Shown here one piece after another: positions 32,953 through 38,174 of a stretch of 64,000 nt of DNA (position 1 is its first letter; the number at the start of each line of letters is the position of its first letter). Under the pieces are notes generated by a model. The model was not told the DNA's origin, ran no database searches, and was given only the letters and a program-made list of their open reading frames with translations. Position numbers and translations under genes: made by a program. The stretch is from Desulfuromonas acetoxidans DSM 684 (GTDB lineage Bacteria; Desulfobacterota; Desulfuromonadia; Desulfuromonadales; Desulfuromonadaceae): contig NZ_AAEW02000002.1 in the NCBI RefSeq assembly GCF_000167355.1, positions 1-64,000 on the forward strand, given 5' to 3'.

Positions 32953-33615
32953 TTAGCGACTGAAGGCGCTCCGGCAGTGTTGATTTAACGGGCACGCCTC
33001 ACAACGGGGATTACGACTACGACAACAGACCTTACCCAGCTCAACCAACAATGCATGGAATTCATTAAATAGCGAGGTGTCAGCAGGAAGGTGCTGCATC
33101 GCGTAGCGCTGGACCATGTCGTAACGTGCTTTGGCGTCAAGCAACCCCAATCTGGAGAAGATTCGGCGAGTATAGGCATCAACGACAAAAATGGGAAGAC
33201 CGGCACCATACAGAACCATGCAGTCAGCCGTTTCCGGGCCAATACCGGGCTGGTCGAGAAGCCGCTGACGGACAGCGTGCAGATCTCCGCCGAGAAAAGA
33301 ATCCACCCGCCCCTGATAGTCACGGCAAATCACTGCCGCCAGATTTTTCAAACACTGACTCTTACGCTGAAAGAATCCAGAGCTGCGAATCAAGACCTGC
33401 AACTCCTGGTGCTCAAGCCGGTGTAACGCCAAGGGGGTCATCACCTGAGCCTCTTTAAGAGCAGCAATGGACAGTTCCACATTGCGCCATGCAGTGTTCT
33501 GAGTCAAAACCGCGCCCACCATCATCTCAAATGTATCATCGGCGGGCCACCACGATTGGGAACCAAACCGTTCGAGCAACAACTCAAAAACGCGCGTTAA
33601 AGAGGGTAATGCCAT
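32953..33615 (-). CDS. HhH-GPD base-excision DNA glycosylase, endonuclease III-like, probably monofunctional
   Basis: 220 residues. The helix-hairpin-helix reads QPGIGPETAD, and the catalytic Asp lies in VVDAYTRRI. A C-terminal [4Fe-4S] cluster has four Cys in a C-x6-C-x2-C-x5-C layout (CCRSRNPRCEACPLNQHC). In true Nth the HhH carries a Lys (GVGRKTA) needed for the AP-lyase step. Here a Glu occupies that place, so it resembles MagIII/MIG-type monofunctional glycosylases. The damaged base removed is unknown. The start overlaps the LysR stop (TAATG), so the two are co-transcribed. Confidence 0.85.
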   Translation of the reverse strand: MALPSLTRVFELLLERFGSQSWWPADDTFEMMVGAVLTQNTAWRNVELSIAALKEAQVMTPLALHRLEHQELQVLIRSSGFFQRKSQCLKNLAAVICRDYQGRVDSFLGGDLHAVRQRLLDQPGIGPETADCMVLYGAGLPIFVVDAYTRRIFSRLGLLDAKARYDMVQRYAMQHLPADTSLFNEFHALLVELGKVCCRSRNPRCEACPLNQHCRSAFSR

Positions 33616-34523
33616 TACTCACCGGGATCGAGTTCAAAGTGACGACAGACACTCTCCATGAACGCCCTCTTTAATGACGCGGACGACTCACACTCTCTGG
33701 CCACAATGCTGCGATGTCGGTAGCAGTGAAAGCCGGGAACATGGTGCTCAAGCAGGCGCCCCTCATCAAGATACTCCTGCACCGCAGAGCGGGAAATAAA
33801 CGTCACCCCCTGCCCGGCCAGAACCTCTTTGATGATCAGACTGAAATCATCCAGCACCATGACGCGACGGAAGTCCGCAAGATCCCCCCCGGTGCCTTTT
33901 AAGTTGAAGCTCAGCAAATCACGACAGCTACAGCCATCGCGCCGGGTGATAAAGTTACACTGCTGAATATCTTCCAGGGTGATGTCATGCGCTGTCGGAC
34001 CATAGGTTGGTGAGCTGACAAAGATCATCTCGTCTTGGGGCAGGTCCATATGACGCATCGTGCCAAAATCCATATCGGCAAGATGCTCAATGACTGCCAC
34101 ATCAAACTCGCCGTTTTTGATACCGTCCAAGGCCTGCAACGGCGCACCGAACAAAAACTTGAGGTCCTCCACTTCACCGAACTCCTGCATGAAGCGTTTA
34201 AGAATTTGCGGCAGATGTGCCATGCCAAAGGCCGGGGTGCAACAGATATAAAGATGCTGCCGGTCCGTCAGTGATCGCAACTCCTGCAGCATCTGCTCTT
34301 CCATATCCAGAATACGCCGCGCCCCTTCAAGGACAATGCGACCAGCAGCCGTCGGCTCCAACACCGCACCGGAACGATCGAGAAGCTGCTCGCCGCAACA
34401 CGCTTCAAGGCTCTTGGTCCGTTGCGAGACAGCGGATTGGGTTAAATGCAGTTTCGCCGCCGCCCGAGAGAAACTCCCCTCTTCTGCAGCGATAAGTAAT
34501 GTCTTTAGATATTGTGTTTCCAT
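33615..34523 (-). CDS. LysR-family transcriptional regulator
   Basis: 302 residues from METQYLKTLL. The winged HTH occupies residues 1-60 (GSFSRAAAKLHLTQSAVSQRTKSLE, read in parts), followed by a periplasmic-binding-like effector domain. It diverges from the cytochrome/barrel operon and overlaps a DNA glycosylase gene downstream. LysR proteins often control the divergent gene and themselves; the T-N11-A palindrome at 34554-34568 lies right before its start. The effector is unknown. Cysteines near residue 30 (ACCGEQ) and 125 (GCSCRD) are a minor oddity. Confidence 0.88.
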   Translation of the reverse strand: METQYLKTLLIAAEEGSFSRAAAKLHLTQSAVSQRTKSLEACCGEQLLDRSGAVLEPTAAGRIVLEGARRILDMEEQMLQELRSLTDRQHLYICCTPAFGMAHLPQILKRFMQEFGEVEDLKFLFGAPLQALDGIKNGEFDVAVIEHLADMDFGTMRHMDLPQDEMIFVSSPTYGPTAHDITLEDIQQCNFITRRDGCSCRDLLSFNLKGTGGDLADFRRVMVLDDFSLIIKEVLAGQGVTFISRSAVQEYLDEGRLLEHHVPGFHCYRHRSIVARECESSASLKRAFMESVCRHFELDPGE

Positions 34524-34553
34524 AGGGTATTCCGAATATGAAAAAAGGATTCT

Positions 34554-34568
34554 ATAAGCCAAGCTTAT
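34554..34568. promoter_or_regulatory. LysR-type T-N11-A operator candidate
   Basis: ATAAG-N5-CTTAT, a perfect inverted repeat fitting the T-N11-A LysR box, about 30 bases upstream of the regulator's ATG in the divergent region. Confidence 0.5.
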
Positions 34569-34793: not shown

Positions 34794-35828
34794 ATGCGAA
34801 GGAAGTTCAACACCAAGGCCTCATGGCTGGTGAAGGCTCTTCCCCTGCTACTCATCCTTGGCGCTTGCGCCACAGGAAGTATCCGGGAAAAAGTACTGAC
34901 CCTGCCTGTGATCGAAGGTGCATGCTACGTCGGTCAAGAGACCTGCGCAGACTGCCACGACGACATGGCCGGCGACATGTTCGCCACCTCTACATCGGCT
35001 GAAGGCTTCGCCAAGACCATTCACGGTCGCCTGGCAACCTGGGAGCTGATGGGCGCGGAAAAAGGCTGCGAATCCTGCCACGGTCCCGGCAGCCAGCACG
35101 TTGATAACGATGGCGACACTGAGATGATTCTGCGCCCTGCAGAACTGCTCTCTGACGAAGCATCGGCAATCTGCGCCAAATGTCACACCGACGGCAAACT
35201 GATGGACTACACCCACAGTGCTCACGCTCTGAGCGATGTCGGTTGTGTCGACTGCCACAGCATCCATGACGGCGAAGGCAAATTCAGCCTGAAGATGGAA
35301 GATCCTGAGCTGTGCTACAGCTGCCACCAGGAAGAGCAGGCAAAATCACACTTCCCTTCCAGCCATCCTTTGGCTGAAGGCAAGATGAACTGCTCCAGCT
35401 GCCACAACACTCACGGTGCTGTTGGTGAGTCCCTGAACACGGATGAGCGTCTTAACGATCTGTGCTTGAACTGCCATACGCGTTACCAAGGCCCCTTTGT
35501 CTTCGGCCATGCACCGGTTGAAGATGATTGCACCATCTGCCACGACCCCCACGGCAGTGTTGCAAACAACCTGTTGGTACAAAACGAGCCGTTCCTGTGC
35601 CTGCAATGCCATGAAGGTCACTTCCACATTCTGCGCAACTCTGCCCAGACACCAGGAAGCCCGGCTGGCACCATCGCAACAGTTCCAGGTATGACGGAAA
35701 CTGCAAACCCCCATGGAACTGAGGGTTTCCAGACATCATTCGGCACCAAGTGCTCAACCTGTCACAAGGTTGTCCACGGCAGTGACTATCCGTCCCAGCC
35801 ACTCAGTGGCCACGGCCTGACTCGTTAA
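34794..35828 (+). CDS. Decaheme c-type cytochrome lipoprotein (DmsE/MtrA family)
   Basis: 344 residues. The signal peptide ends in a lipobox (LGAC, Cys25), so the protein is probably anchored in the periplasmic leaflet of a membrane. Ten CXXCH heme-binding motifs follow (CADCH, CESCH, CAKCH, CVDCH, CYSCH, CSSCH, CLNCH, CTICH, CLQCH, CSTCH), the count of MtrA/DmsE. Extra His residues can serve as distal ligands. The next gene, 27 bases downstream, encodes an MtrB/PioB-type barrel, so the pair should form a transmembrane electron conduit. No outer-surface cytochrome (MtrC-like) gene is adjacent. Confidence 0.92.
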   Translation: MRRKFNTKASWLVKALPLLLILGACATGSIREKVLTLPVIEGACYVGQETCADCHDDMAGDMFATSTSAEGFAKTIHGRLATWELMGAEKGCESCHGPGSQHVDNDGDTEMILRPAELLSDEASAICAKCHTDGKLMDYTHSAHALSDVGCVDCHSIHDGEGKFSLKMEDPELCYSCHQEEQAKSHFPSSHPLAEGKMNCSSCHNTHGAVGESLNTDERLNDLCLNCHTRYQGPFVFGHAPVEDDCTICHDPHGSVANNLLVQNEPFLCLQCHEGHFHILRNSAQTPGSPAGTIATVPGMTETANPHGTEGFQTSFGTKCSTCHKVVHGSDYPSQPLSGHGLTR

Positions 35829-35855: not shown

Positions 35856-38174
35856 ATGAAGCAAAGCCGATTGTGGCTGCTTGCATTGATGTCCGTCCTG
35901 GCGATGCTGGCCACTGCCACTGTGGCAGCAGCTGAAGGTGACGAAGCCCACCTGTCCGGTTCTTGGGAACTAGGCATGAGTGCTGTCACCACCAAGGACA
36001 ATGCAGCACGTGTAAATGAATTCGCAACAGTCCATAAGGATGACGGGGTTGCTCTGGCACCGAAACTGGACTTGGAATTTGAAAAAGGTTCTTTCCTGCT
36101 GGAAGTCGAGAGTGAAGTTAATGGCGCTCGCGATCAGCAGCATGCTCTGGAAATCGACGCAGGTCGTATTTTCAAACTCGGCAGCGAGTACAGTGTTATG
36201 CAACACTGGAAGGATCATGAAACGTTGGACCAGATGGGCGCCACCGCCCGTGAGGACACCGGCGGTTCCCAGCCTTCTGTAACGACCGATAAAATCTTTG
36301 CCGACCTGGCCGAGATTGGTGTTACCTCAGTCGGTGGCGTTACCCTGAACTATGATGCTGCTGAAGCTTACGCTCAAGAGCTGGATAACGAGTATATCGT
36401 GACCCGCAAAGAGTGGAAAAACGAAGCAGAACTGACTCTGCCCCAACTGCCTAACGTGACGTTCAAGGCAGGCATTCGCATTGAAACACGCGAGGGCATG
36501 GAACAAGCCATCGGCCTGTCCAAGTGTGACGGTTGTCACGTTTCTGCCGTTGGCAAAGACATCGATGAGATCACTGAAGAGTACACCTTCGGCGCTACCG
36601 GTAAATTCGGTATCCTGACCGTGGACTATGAGTACCTCACGCGTTACTTTGACGAAGACAGCACCACCCCGACCCGCTACTACGAAGATGCTGGCAACCC
36701 CTCTGCGGCAGACCAGCTGATTTATGAAGCGGGCGACCTGGAGCTCAACCGTACGCCTGACTCTGAAAAAGAGACACACATGATCAAGGCGCGCGTTGAT
36801 CTGCCCCGCAACACCAGCATCACTGCAAGCTATGTTAAATCTGAAGTAGACAGCTCCAAGTCGGAAACTCAAACCGACTACCAACTGCTTGACGGCGACA
36901 CGCTGACCACCGAGTACGAATCTTTCGGTGCCAAGCTGGCCACCAAGTTCAACAAAATGATCAGCCTGTCCCTGCGCGGTTCTTACTATGAGATCGAAGC
37001 AGACGACAACGAGATCTACTATCAGGCCCGCGAAGATTCTGCTCGCTACGACGCTGACCCCGCTCTGTCCCTGCTGCCTTTCGGTGCAAGCGACGAGTAC
37101 CACTCTGCTGAAGAACGCGAAGTCACTGACGCTGGTGCTGACGTAGTTATCCGTCTGGCTAAAGCCACCACTTTGCGCCTGGGCTACGAGTACGAAGAAG
37201 TTGAGCGCGTTGAAGAAGAGCTGGGCGAAACTGAAACCCACAGCTTCAAAGCTGCTCTGAAAACTCGCCTGAGCAACAAGCTGTCCGGCCGCATCAGCTA
37301 CACTTACCAGGATATTGATGATCCGTTCGGTGGTGAAGACGTTACCGGTATTGCCCAAGGTATCGGCACTGAGGATCCCCTCGGTTCCGGCCTGTGGTAC
37401 CTCGACACAGCAGACTACTACGGCATCGAGAACAACAGCGCCACGGCAGTATGGTACTGGAATAGCGTCTATCCCAACCGTACTATGGATGCCACAACGG
37501 AGCCTGATACGGTTCACGAAACCAAGCTGAGCACCACTTGGGCACCGTCTGCCAACATGGCAGCCACCCTGTTTGCCCGCGTTCGCTACGAAGAGAACGA
37601 CGACGTAGAATACGAGCAGACGACTTATGTTCCCGGCGTTACCTTCTGGTATGCCCCGAGCGACAAACTCAACCTCACCATGTCGTACACTTTCAACAAC
37701 CAGGACACTGAAAACCGTGCCTGCGTTGGCTGGTACCATGGCTGAGCGAACGCAGTTTCTTCGGCCCAGTTTGGGTCGATCTGTGACATCGTTGAGTATG
37801 AGTCCCAAGTACACACTGTTTCTTTCACTGCCGACTATCAGGCGACAGAAAAGCTCAACCTCAACGCCAGCGTTGTGTACAACAAAGCTGACGACGAATG
37901 GGATTGGGATTTCTATGAGCGCGCTTCCCTCATCATGGGTGGCGGTGCGTACAACTACGATTCTGTAGACCAGAACAACCTGATCGACGAGTACTCTGAC
38001 CTCTCATACGAGCAGTACGAGATCACTCTCGGCGCCACTTACAACTTCTCCGATGCCTTCTATACGAAGATTTCGGGTACCTACGACATCTTCGAATCTG
38101 ATGAGATGTATGTCTACGGTGATGAAGATGGTGATTCCTATACGGGTTATGTAGCCTTCGGTTACAGCTTCTAA
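35856..38174 (+). CDS. MtrB/PioB-family outer-membrane beta-barrel, candidate selenoprotein
   Basis: 772 codons read through an in-frame TGA at 37743-37745 (codon 630); without readthrough it would stop at 629. The signal peptide (1-27) and alternating amphipathic strands give a barrel. The segment after the TGA keeps the same strand/loop style and ends in Y-S-F, the C-terminal Phe expected for insertion by BAM. The TGA sits in ACVGWYHG-U-ANAVSS and is followed by a SECIS-like hairpin. MtrB/PioB proteins sheath a decaheme cytochrome across the outer membrane; one is encoded just upstream. A CXXCH motif (CDGCH, 224-228) is unusual in a barrel. The alternative is a nonsense mutation or sequencing error (Trp TGG to TGA). 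Confidence 0.85.
37751..37785 (+). promoter_or_regulatory. Candidate bacterial SECIS element
   Basis: Starting 5 bases after the TGA: a lower stem CGCAG / CTGTG, an asymmetric internal loop, an upper 7-bp stem TCGGCCC / GGGTCGA (one G-U) and apical loop AGUUU. The loop begins 22 bases after the TGA and carries a G in its first two positions, as in bacterial SECIS rules. Confidence 0.65.

Follow-up and report, generated by a model that had tools for sequence, protein, structure and literature searches.

Selenocysteine (Sec) commonly occurs in enzymes of the cytoplasm or the periplasm. Among electron conduits of the outer membrane, the systems closest to the locus described here are the MtrCAB complex and the DmsE/DmsF-type conduit from Shewanella, the latter of which has, to our knowledge, no counterpart to the Sec loop treated below. 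The barrel family itself is catalogued in NCBIfam as NF041027, "GSU2204 family CXXCH-containing (seleno)protein". The selenoproteins of prokaryotes compiled in a 2022 review (PMC9312934) include an "MtrB/PioB family outer membrane beta-barrel protein", a 2026 review names NF041027 among selenoproteins (PMC13188914), and both credit the barrel family to Zhang and Gladyshev 2008 (PMC2398784). A text search of the main text of the latter gave no mention of MtrB or of the outer membrane. Since the family is already listed as a predicted selenoprotein, the idea of a Sec-containing barrel is not new, and the first-pass annotation of this DNA, which knew of no described case, has to be corrected in this respect. 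Among the matches listed from the open-licence literature, neither an experimental test of the barrel Sec nor a structural account of it was found.

Several relatives have been studied from other perspectives. GSU2203 is OmcK (PMC4070692), from which we infer that GSU2204 is OmcL, and both genes are up-regulated in G. sulfurreducens on iron oxides (PMC4070692). An OmcK/OmcL pair, whose copy may or may not carry Sec, is reported to be expressed in HotSeep-1, a partner of methane-oxidising archaea, and is discussed there as a conduit with an extracellular OmcK homologue (PMC10553843). MtrAB of D. acetexigens, which may or may not equal the pair described here, is expressed on an electrode (PMC12133095). 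Furthermore, the ExtKL multiheme cytochrome (NF040886) is a predicted Geobacter selenoprotein (PMC5877670, PMC1914089, PMC13188914). Like the barrel it carries a predicted Sec, here in a multiheme protein for electron transfer from the same class as our organism, while being, by its description, a cytochrome and not a barrel.

Here we analyse a barrel gene within a stretch of 64,000 nucleotides from Desulfuromonas acetoxidans DSM 684, referred to as the window. What we add to the known family is the placement of Sec and a CXXCH motif on extracellular loops, as predicted by topology, a covarying SECIS element, a paralogue with Cys, the absence of a Cys partner for Sec that is common to the family, and a barrel closure that should depend on selenium.

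Genomes and Loci Compared

The barrel family was found over cut-off in 50 of the 136 genomes of the window's order and in 40 of the 395 genomes of the phylum sample. From the order, 64 loci were taken. L080 gave no match; broken or shifted loci (L062, L068, L079), loci at contig ends (L055, L063, L065 and L054, the last showing TGA in the same motif) and duplicates (L009, L010, L020, L022, L078) were left out. The result set thus comprises 45 Sec loci and 6 paralogues, with the window as the 46th Sec row, and does not count the N-terminal fragments G013:C92, G003:C255 and G084:C197. From the phylum, 42 of 49 matches were fetched, own genome and G160 aside; the matches left out lie in G279, G345 (twice), G478, G526, G559 and G648, six of the seven being below cut-off. 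L122, for which an internal TAA is listed, was counted as a TGA locus and stands outside the wider set of 39 loci (35 from the phylum and 4 from the class) used for the flanking Cys residues. The site states of L113 and L145 were taken from the reading of the loci, not from their rows in the protein alignment. Finally, 14 distant homologues were picked by hand from many matches below cut-off, 13 of which were informative (L100 was not used), and a plasmid search with the barrel protein gave no match.

Organization of the Locus and Its Partner Genes

The locus consists of a divergent pair of transcription units (Table 1), with the LysR gene read leftward and the decaheme and barrel genes read rightward towards a terminator-like hairpin. 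The strong terminator claimed earlier was recovered as such a hairpin; folding detected it, while it is absent from the list of a simple pattern scan. The barrel frame likewise agrees with its first description: it starts at 35856 and has TGA as codon 630, after which 142 more codons (37746-38171) lead to F772 and the final TAA (38172-38174).

Table 1. Features of the conduit locus, in window coordinates.
Feature	Position	Strand	Evidence and remarks
LysR-type regulator (NF041036, multiheme cytochrome-associated LysR)	33615..34562	-	524.1 bits, cut-off 210; divergent from conduit operon
Decaheme c-type cytochrome, GSU2203/OmcK type, MtrA/DmsE family	34794..35828	+	10 CXXCH; NF041028 464.4 bits (cut-off 325)
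Barrel gene, 772 aa with predicted Sec630; GSU2204 family, MtrB/PioB type, 26 strands	35856..38174	+	NF041027, Pfam MtrB_PioB, AlphaFold2 model
CXXCH of barrel, residues 224-228 (CDGCH; C224, C227, H228)	36525..36539	+	Tip of strand 7/8 hairpin, extracellular by topology
Cys623, -7 relative to Sec	37722..37724	+	46/46 in order, 29/39 in wider set
TGA read as Sec630, strand 21/22 loop	37743..37745	+	TGA/Cys column across homologues
SECIS apical hairpin, stem CGGCCC/GGGTCG, loop AGUUU	37762..37778	+	Covariation and de novo prediction
Cys643, +13 relative to Sec	37782..37784	+	46/46 in order; Cys in +1..+30 in 4/39 of wider set
Terminator-like hairpin with T run, 3' of TAA	38195..38229	+	-24.2 kcal/mol, z -6.2 (folding)

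An NF041036-family LysR gene is also divergent in L010 and in L011, a relative with 92% identity. The second-best model of the window's regulator is the HrsM-like selenium-metabolism LysR (NF040786), for which it scores 140.1 bits and thus lies below the curated cut-off of 250.

With 246 bits against a cut-off of 192.2, the decaheme cytochrome also belongs to the DmsE family as modelled by TIGR03508, in which it resembles the DmsE/DmsF conduit; no molybdenum DMSO reductase gene was noticed next to it. By sequence, its nearest solved chain is 6r2q_A of the Mtr complex (E 3.4e-42), which we take to be MtrA, the molecule name of that chain in the entry being a misnomer. An open stretch with 8-10 CXXCH motifs lies directly upstream of the barrel in 40/40 testable loci, i.e. 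those with at least 800 bases upstream; in the other five of the 45 the upstream DNA was too short. Within the window, L010, L011 and L093, no CXXCH-containing ORF of at least 90 aa was found besides decaheme and barrel. Consequently, no MtrC-like gene lies alongside in these four loci, unlike in the MtrCAB complex with its surface decaheme MtrC. The relationship to MtrA and DmsE suggests that the OmcK-type cytochrome is the wire inside the barrel, in contrast to the term "extracellular" used for the HotSeep-1 homologue in PMC10553843.

Barrel Family, Fold, and Topology

The barrel matches NF041027 with 640.8 bits (cut-off 350) over practically the whole profile (positions 3-580 of 580). It shares the CXXCH of that family and the adjacent GSU2203-type decaheme gene, while nothing was found that excludes membership. 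The match extends up to residue 629, the one before Sec (window position 37742), so that the last 142 residues and with them the last five strands fall beyond the end of the model. A predicted protein of 629 residues lacks five strands, and barrel modelling from such a prediction would go wrong. The Pfam model MtrB_PioB (PF11854) is matched as well (50.9 bits, cut-off 23), whereas TIGR03509 gave 33.9 bits against a cut-off of 240.05, which points to a related fold and operon outside that subfamily.

An AlphaFold2 model, computed from an alignment of 46 rows (A1; 40 Sec, 6 Cys) with Cys in place of Sec, comprises 26 strands (mean pLDDT 79.9, pTM 0.73). Among solved structures, MtrB matches it best (6r2q_B; Foldseek E 1.2e-24), with Z 28.3 and rmsd 3.3 over 594 aligned residues, while the next-best match reaches Z 17.4. 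Both barrels have 26 strands and are encoded beside an MtrA-type decaheme gene. However, they share only 13% identity, and the window barrel differs from MtrB in its Sec and CXXCH, which lie on loops that are extracellular by topology, as well as in lacking an mtrC-like gene alongside.

This placement follows from strand parity. Long loops connect odd to even strands in the model, while the even-to-odd connections comprise only 2-6 residues. Since the C-terminal strand of such outer-membrane barrels ends in the periplasm, the Sec loop (residues 626-638, strands 21/22) and the CXXCH tip (residues 221-227, strands 7/8) should both be extracellular. The pLDDT is about 55-64 for residues 621-640 and about 55-68 for the Sec and CXXCH loops, so that the model supports the side of the membrane, not the shape of the loops. 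As the two hairpins are 14 strands apart, they would lie roughly opposite each other across the mouth of the barrel. The CXXCH is invariant in the 42 orthologue rows covering it (42/42) and in all 6 Cys paralogues of the order, and probably represents a heme c site. What follows the Sec residue are strands 22-26, i.e. five of the 26, and the C-terminal Phe.

Conservation of the Sec Codon

TGA occupies the site in 86 loci of order, class and phylum. In the window's order all 46 usable rows, the window among them, have it within the motif C-x-G-[WF]-Y-[HD]-G-U-[AG]. Elsewhere in the class, four of five loci have it; the fifth (L107) shows no motif and its match stops at a contig end. Outside the class, 36 of the 42 matches fetched from the phylum carry TGA, while the others have Cys (L145, L146), neither Sec nor Cys (L144, L147) or fall short of the site (L148, L149). 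The signature shared across the Sec loci is [YF]-x-G-Sec-[AG], and it is accompanied by CXXCH in the full-length rows that are read correctly. Cys takes the Sec column in eight paralogues, namely L145, L146 and 6/6 in the order. Trp was not seen in this column in any of the homologues aligned from order, class and phylum. Apart from L144, L147 and the 13 informative distant homologues, which have neither Sec nor Cys there, the column is therefore one of TGA or Cys, as expected if the earlier proposal of Sec was right. A base error cannot recur in 86 loci, which rules out a mis-sequenced position.

In a quick tree of 55 rows, seven Cys rows form one clade (support 100) within the Sec-bearing family. 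L144 and L147, family members that possess the CXXCH, are paired on long branches (support 99) and indicate that the barrel can do without Sec or Cys. Because several deeper forks of this tree are open and some branches are long (SEC_L113, SEC_L112, NON_L144, NON_L147), we make no claim on the ancestral state.

The region behind the TGA bears the marks of coding sequence. Its dN/dS of 0.06-0.17 is similar to that before the TGA in the six of eight pairs with finite dS; the two others, L037 and L026, had a saturated dS behind the TGA, and L026 also ahead of it. A second stop follows 140-165 codons past the TGA in 44 loci, and these final stops are 31 TAA, 8 TAG and 5 TGA, while the site codon is TGA in 45 loci plus the window and never TAA or TAG. 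Only 14 of 20,000 base shuffles left 142 codons open. Taken together, the comparison strongly supports Sec at codon 630 of this MtrB/PioB-type barrel as by far the best reading of the in-frame TGA. By all comparative tests run, except for the Rfam scans described below, which gave no SECIS, the barrel gene is a real selenoprotein gene.

The SECIS Hairpin

A two-part hairpin had been proposed behind the TGA, of which one part stands. The upper stem TCGGCCC/GGGTCGA with its loop AGUUU (37761-37779) was recovered, with the loop starting 22 bases past the TGA, and it covaries. In an alignment of 43 rows (A2; 35 distinct sequences), which excludes L060, L070 and L077 because of a loop shorter by 3 nt, the stem at columns 20-25/31-36 from the TGA is paired in 97.6% of 210 cells. 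Double changes occur in four of the six pairs and amount to 21 cells against a shuffle mean of 3.5 (0/500). Sliding the stem partner by 1-3 columns lowers the pairing to 20-49%, and RNAalifold predicted exactly these 6 pairs de novo. The lower stem CGCAG/CTGTG, in contrast, is present in the window's own fold and pairs in 52% of cells across the alignment, compared to 53.6% in shuffles. Judged by this comparison, it is not conserved. The 50-nt fold of the window has -18.7 kcal/mol (z -2.1), a stability matched by 5 of 200 shuffles.

In L019 and L021 an insertion of 10 residues follows the Gln between Sec and the second Cys and alters the protein immediately past the hairpin loop; the residues behind it differ, while that Cys is kept. 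Despite the insertion, 6/6 stem pairs can be formed in L019 and 5/6 in L021. Thus the SECIS RNA seems to be under a constraint of its own, since the pairs are kept while the protein changes. Single-sequence folds of L021 and L060 lack the hairpin in its place.

A scan of positions 37650-37900 with all Rfam families gave nothing relevant and no SECIS match. The same holds for a whole-genome search with RF00031, which says little, as no positive control rang.

Sec Machinery in the Genome

The sel genes to be expected if Sec is inserted were all found. On contig C16, selA, selB and selD are consecutive, with selD carrying an in-frame TGA of its own, while a second selB is located on C10. Two tRNA-Sec genes scored 71 and 69 bits. 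A third match with 47.9 bits lies just above the cut-off of 47, and ARAGORN calls a tRNA-Trp there. The two selB sets (G000:C10:114388-116553, L090, and G000:C16:23425-39402, L091) encode proteins that are 58% identical, and the two tRNA-Sec genes agree at 87/92 positions, while the genome has a single selA match. The C10 set has two neighbours, a GrdH-type gene resembling betaine reductase, which carries a TGA of its own, and a gene for a betaine transporter. Another genome of the same genus (G030) also has two selB genes over cut-off.

Throughout the order, 47 of the 50 barrel genomes have selB over cut-off, and the remaining three are draft assemblies that are 81-87% complete. Conversely, none of the five genomes of at least 90% completeness without selB over cut-off has a barrel over cut-off. 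These co-occurrences were counted by hand, with the selB search covering 134 of the 136 order genomes.

A Cys Paralogue in the Same Genome

Contig C6 encodes a Cys paralogue of 805 aa with its own NF041028 decaheme directly upstream. The Sec and the Cys form thus coexist in one genome, and either is accompanied by a separate decaheme gene. Such paralogues are present in 6 of the 50 over-cut-off genomes of the order and are 24-26% identical to the Sec form. All six have Ala and Tyr at the positions of the two flanking Cys, while the CXXCH is kept. In two relatives a di-heme enzyme gene (Pfam CCP_MauG; L151:6728-7801, L152:8389-9462) is divergent from the Cys-form operon, where it takes the place held by LysR in the Sec operon. 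A selenium-controlled use of the Sec and Cys conduits is possible.

Discussion

The explanation that very probably accounts best for the data as a whole is that of a selenoprotein barrel which, together with its decaheme, forms a conduit that closes only in the presence of selenium and carries an extracellular redox terminus. The locus would encode a two-gene electron conduit across the outer membrane, built from an MtrA/DmsE-type decaheme and an MtrB/PioB-type GSU2204 barrel. SelB, acting on the short SECIS hairpin, would decode UGA 630 as Sec, as the comparative evidence indicates. Since five of 26 strands and the C-terminal Phe follow the Sec, a complete barrel should require selenium: a stop at this UGA would leave an unclosed barrel without assembly signal, and a working conduit would be made only if selenium is available. 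The most likely role of the Sec is that of a redox terminus of the barrel itself, through which electrons would pass from the decaheme to a surface selenol and on to an extracellular acceptor. A lone surface selenol served by hemes seems the simplest reading, and elemental sulfur or polysulfide, metal oxides and electrodes would be candidate acceptors. One might speculate further that a barrel with surface selenol and covalent heme loops, fed by the decaheme and tied to selenium in its assembly, needs no MtrC-type surface cytochrome at all. This notion is tentative, and we lean towards doubting it.

Alternatively, Sec630 could form a selenenylsulfide with Cys623 or Cys643 and act as a redox switch on the barrel, similar to thiol-disulfide systems. 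Both Cys residues are invariant in the 46 order rows, and C643 is retained although the length of the loop between it and Sec varies (L019, L021). The first of them lies at -7 as originally described, while the second is found at +13, not +14. However, in the wider set Cys at -7 is restricted to 29/39 loci, 10/39 have no Cys at all from -12 to +30, and Cys in +1..+30 occurs in just 4/39, all of them from the class-level search and hence only in the window's own class. In addition, neither flanking Cys is left in the six Cys paralogues from the order. As these residues are neither kept across the phylum nor in the paralogues, a selenenylsulfide is not a shared mechanism, and the suggestion of one with a nearby Cys does not describe a feature of the family. 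On the whole we consider this reading unlikely, while a local selenenylsulfide may have been added in the window's class.

Another scenario would treat Sec mainly as a selenium gate on conduit production, with the C6 Cys paralogue as the selenium-free substitute. It fits the occurrence of both forms with their decaheme genes in one genome and the divergent LysR with a selenium-metabolism LysR as second-best model. In Methanococcus, Sec/Cys isogenes are a target of HrsM, which is likewise a LysR protein (PMC5322559). However, the window's LysR lies well under the NF040786 cut-off, Sec is kept far beyond the few order genomes with a Cys paralogue, and the paralogues are too dissimilar in sequence to be obvious substitutes. 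Thus we regard a role mainly as a gate as distinctly improbable.

That translation instead passes the UGA without selenium, by suppression or by inserting Trp, is highly improbable. The open frame behind it is all that this idea explains, while it is contradicted by the TGA/Cys column without Trp, the covarying SECIS and the presence of Sec genes. Furthermore, UGA terminates 5 of 14 genes checked in this genome, including selA and one selB, and we therefore reject UGA as a Trp codon.

A true stop, or a broken or mis-sequenced gene with the downstream frame as a remnant, is next to inconceivable: the 629-residue product does obtain the full NF041027 score, the model ending at precisely that residue, and damaged loci do exist (L062 with an in-frame TAG, L068, L079), but we reject it given the invariant site codon beside mixed final stops, the open and constrained frame, the covarying SECIS and the five strands with C-terminal Phe, which a remnant would not be expected to retain.

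While Sec is commonly an affair of enzymes within the cell, the evidence puts it here at the outer edge of a barrel that conducts electrons, and does so for one phylum at least. A catalytic Sec in such a conduit would turn selenium into a control of extracellular electron transfer that can be tested. If the conduit with a surface selenol proves true, the supply of selenium would set part of the extracellular respiration of metal- and sulfur-reducers.
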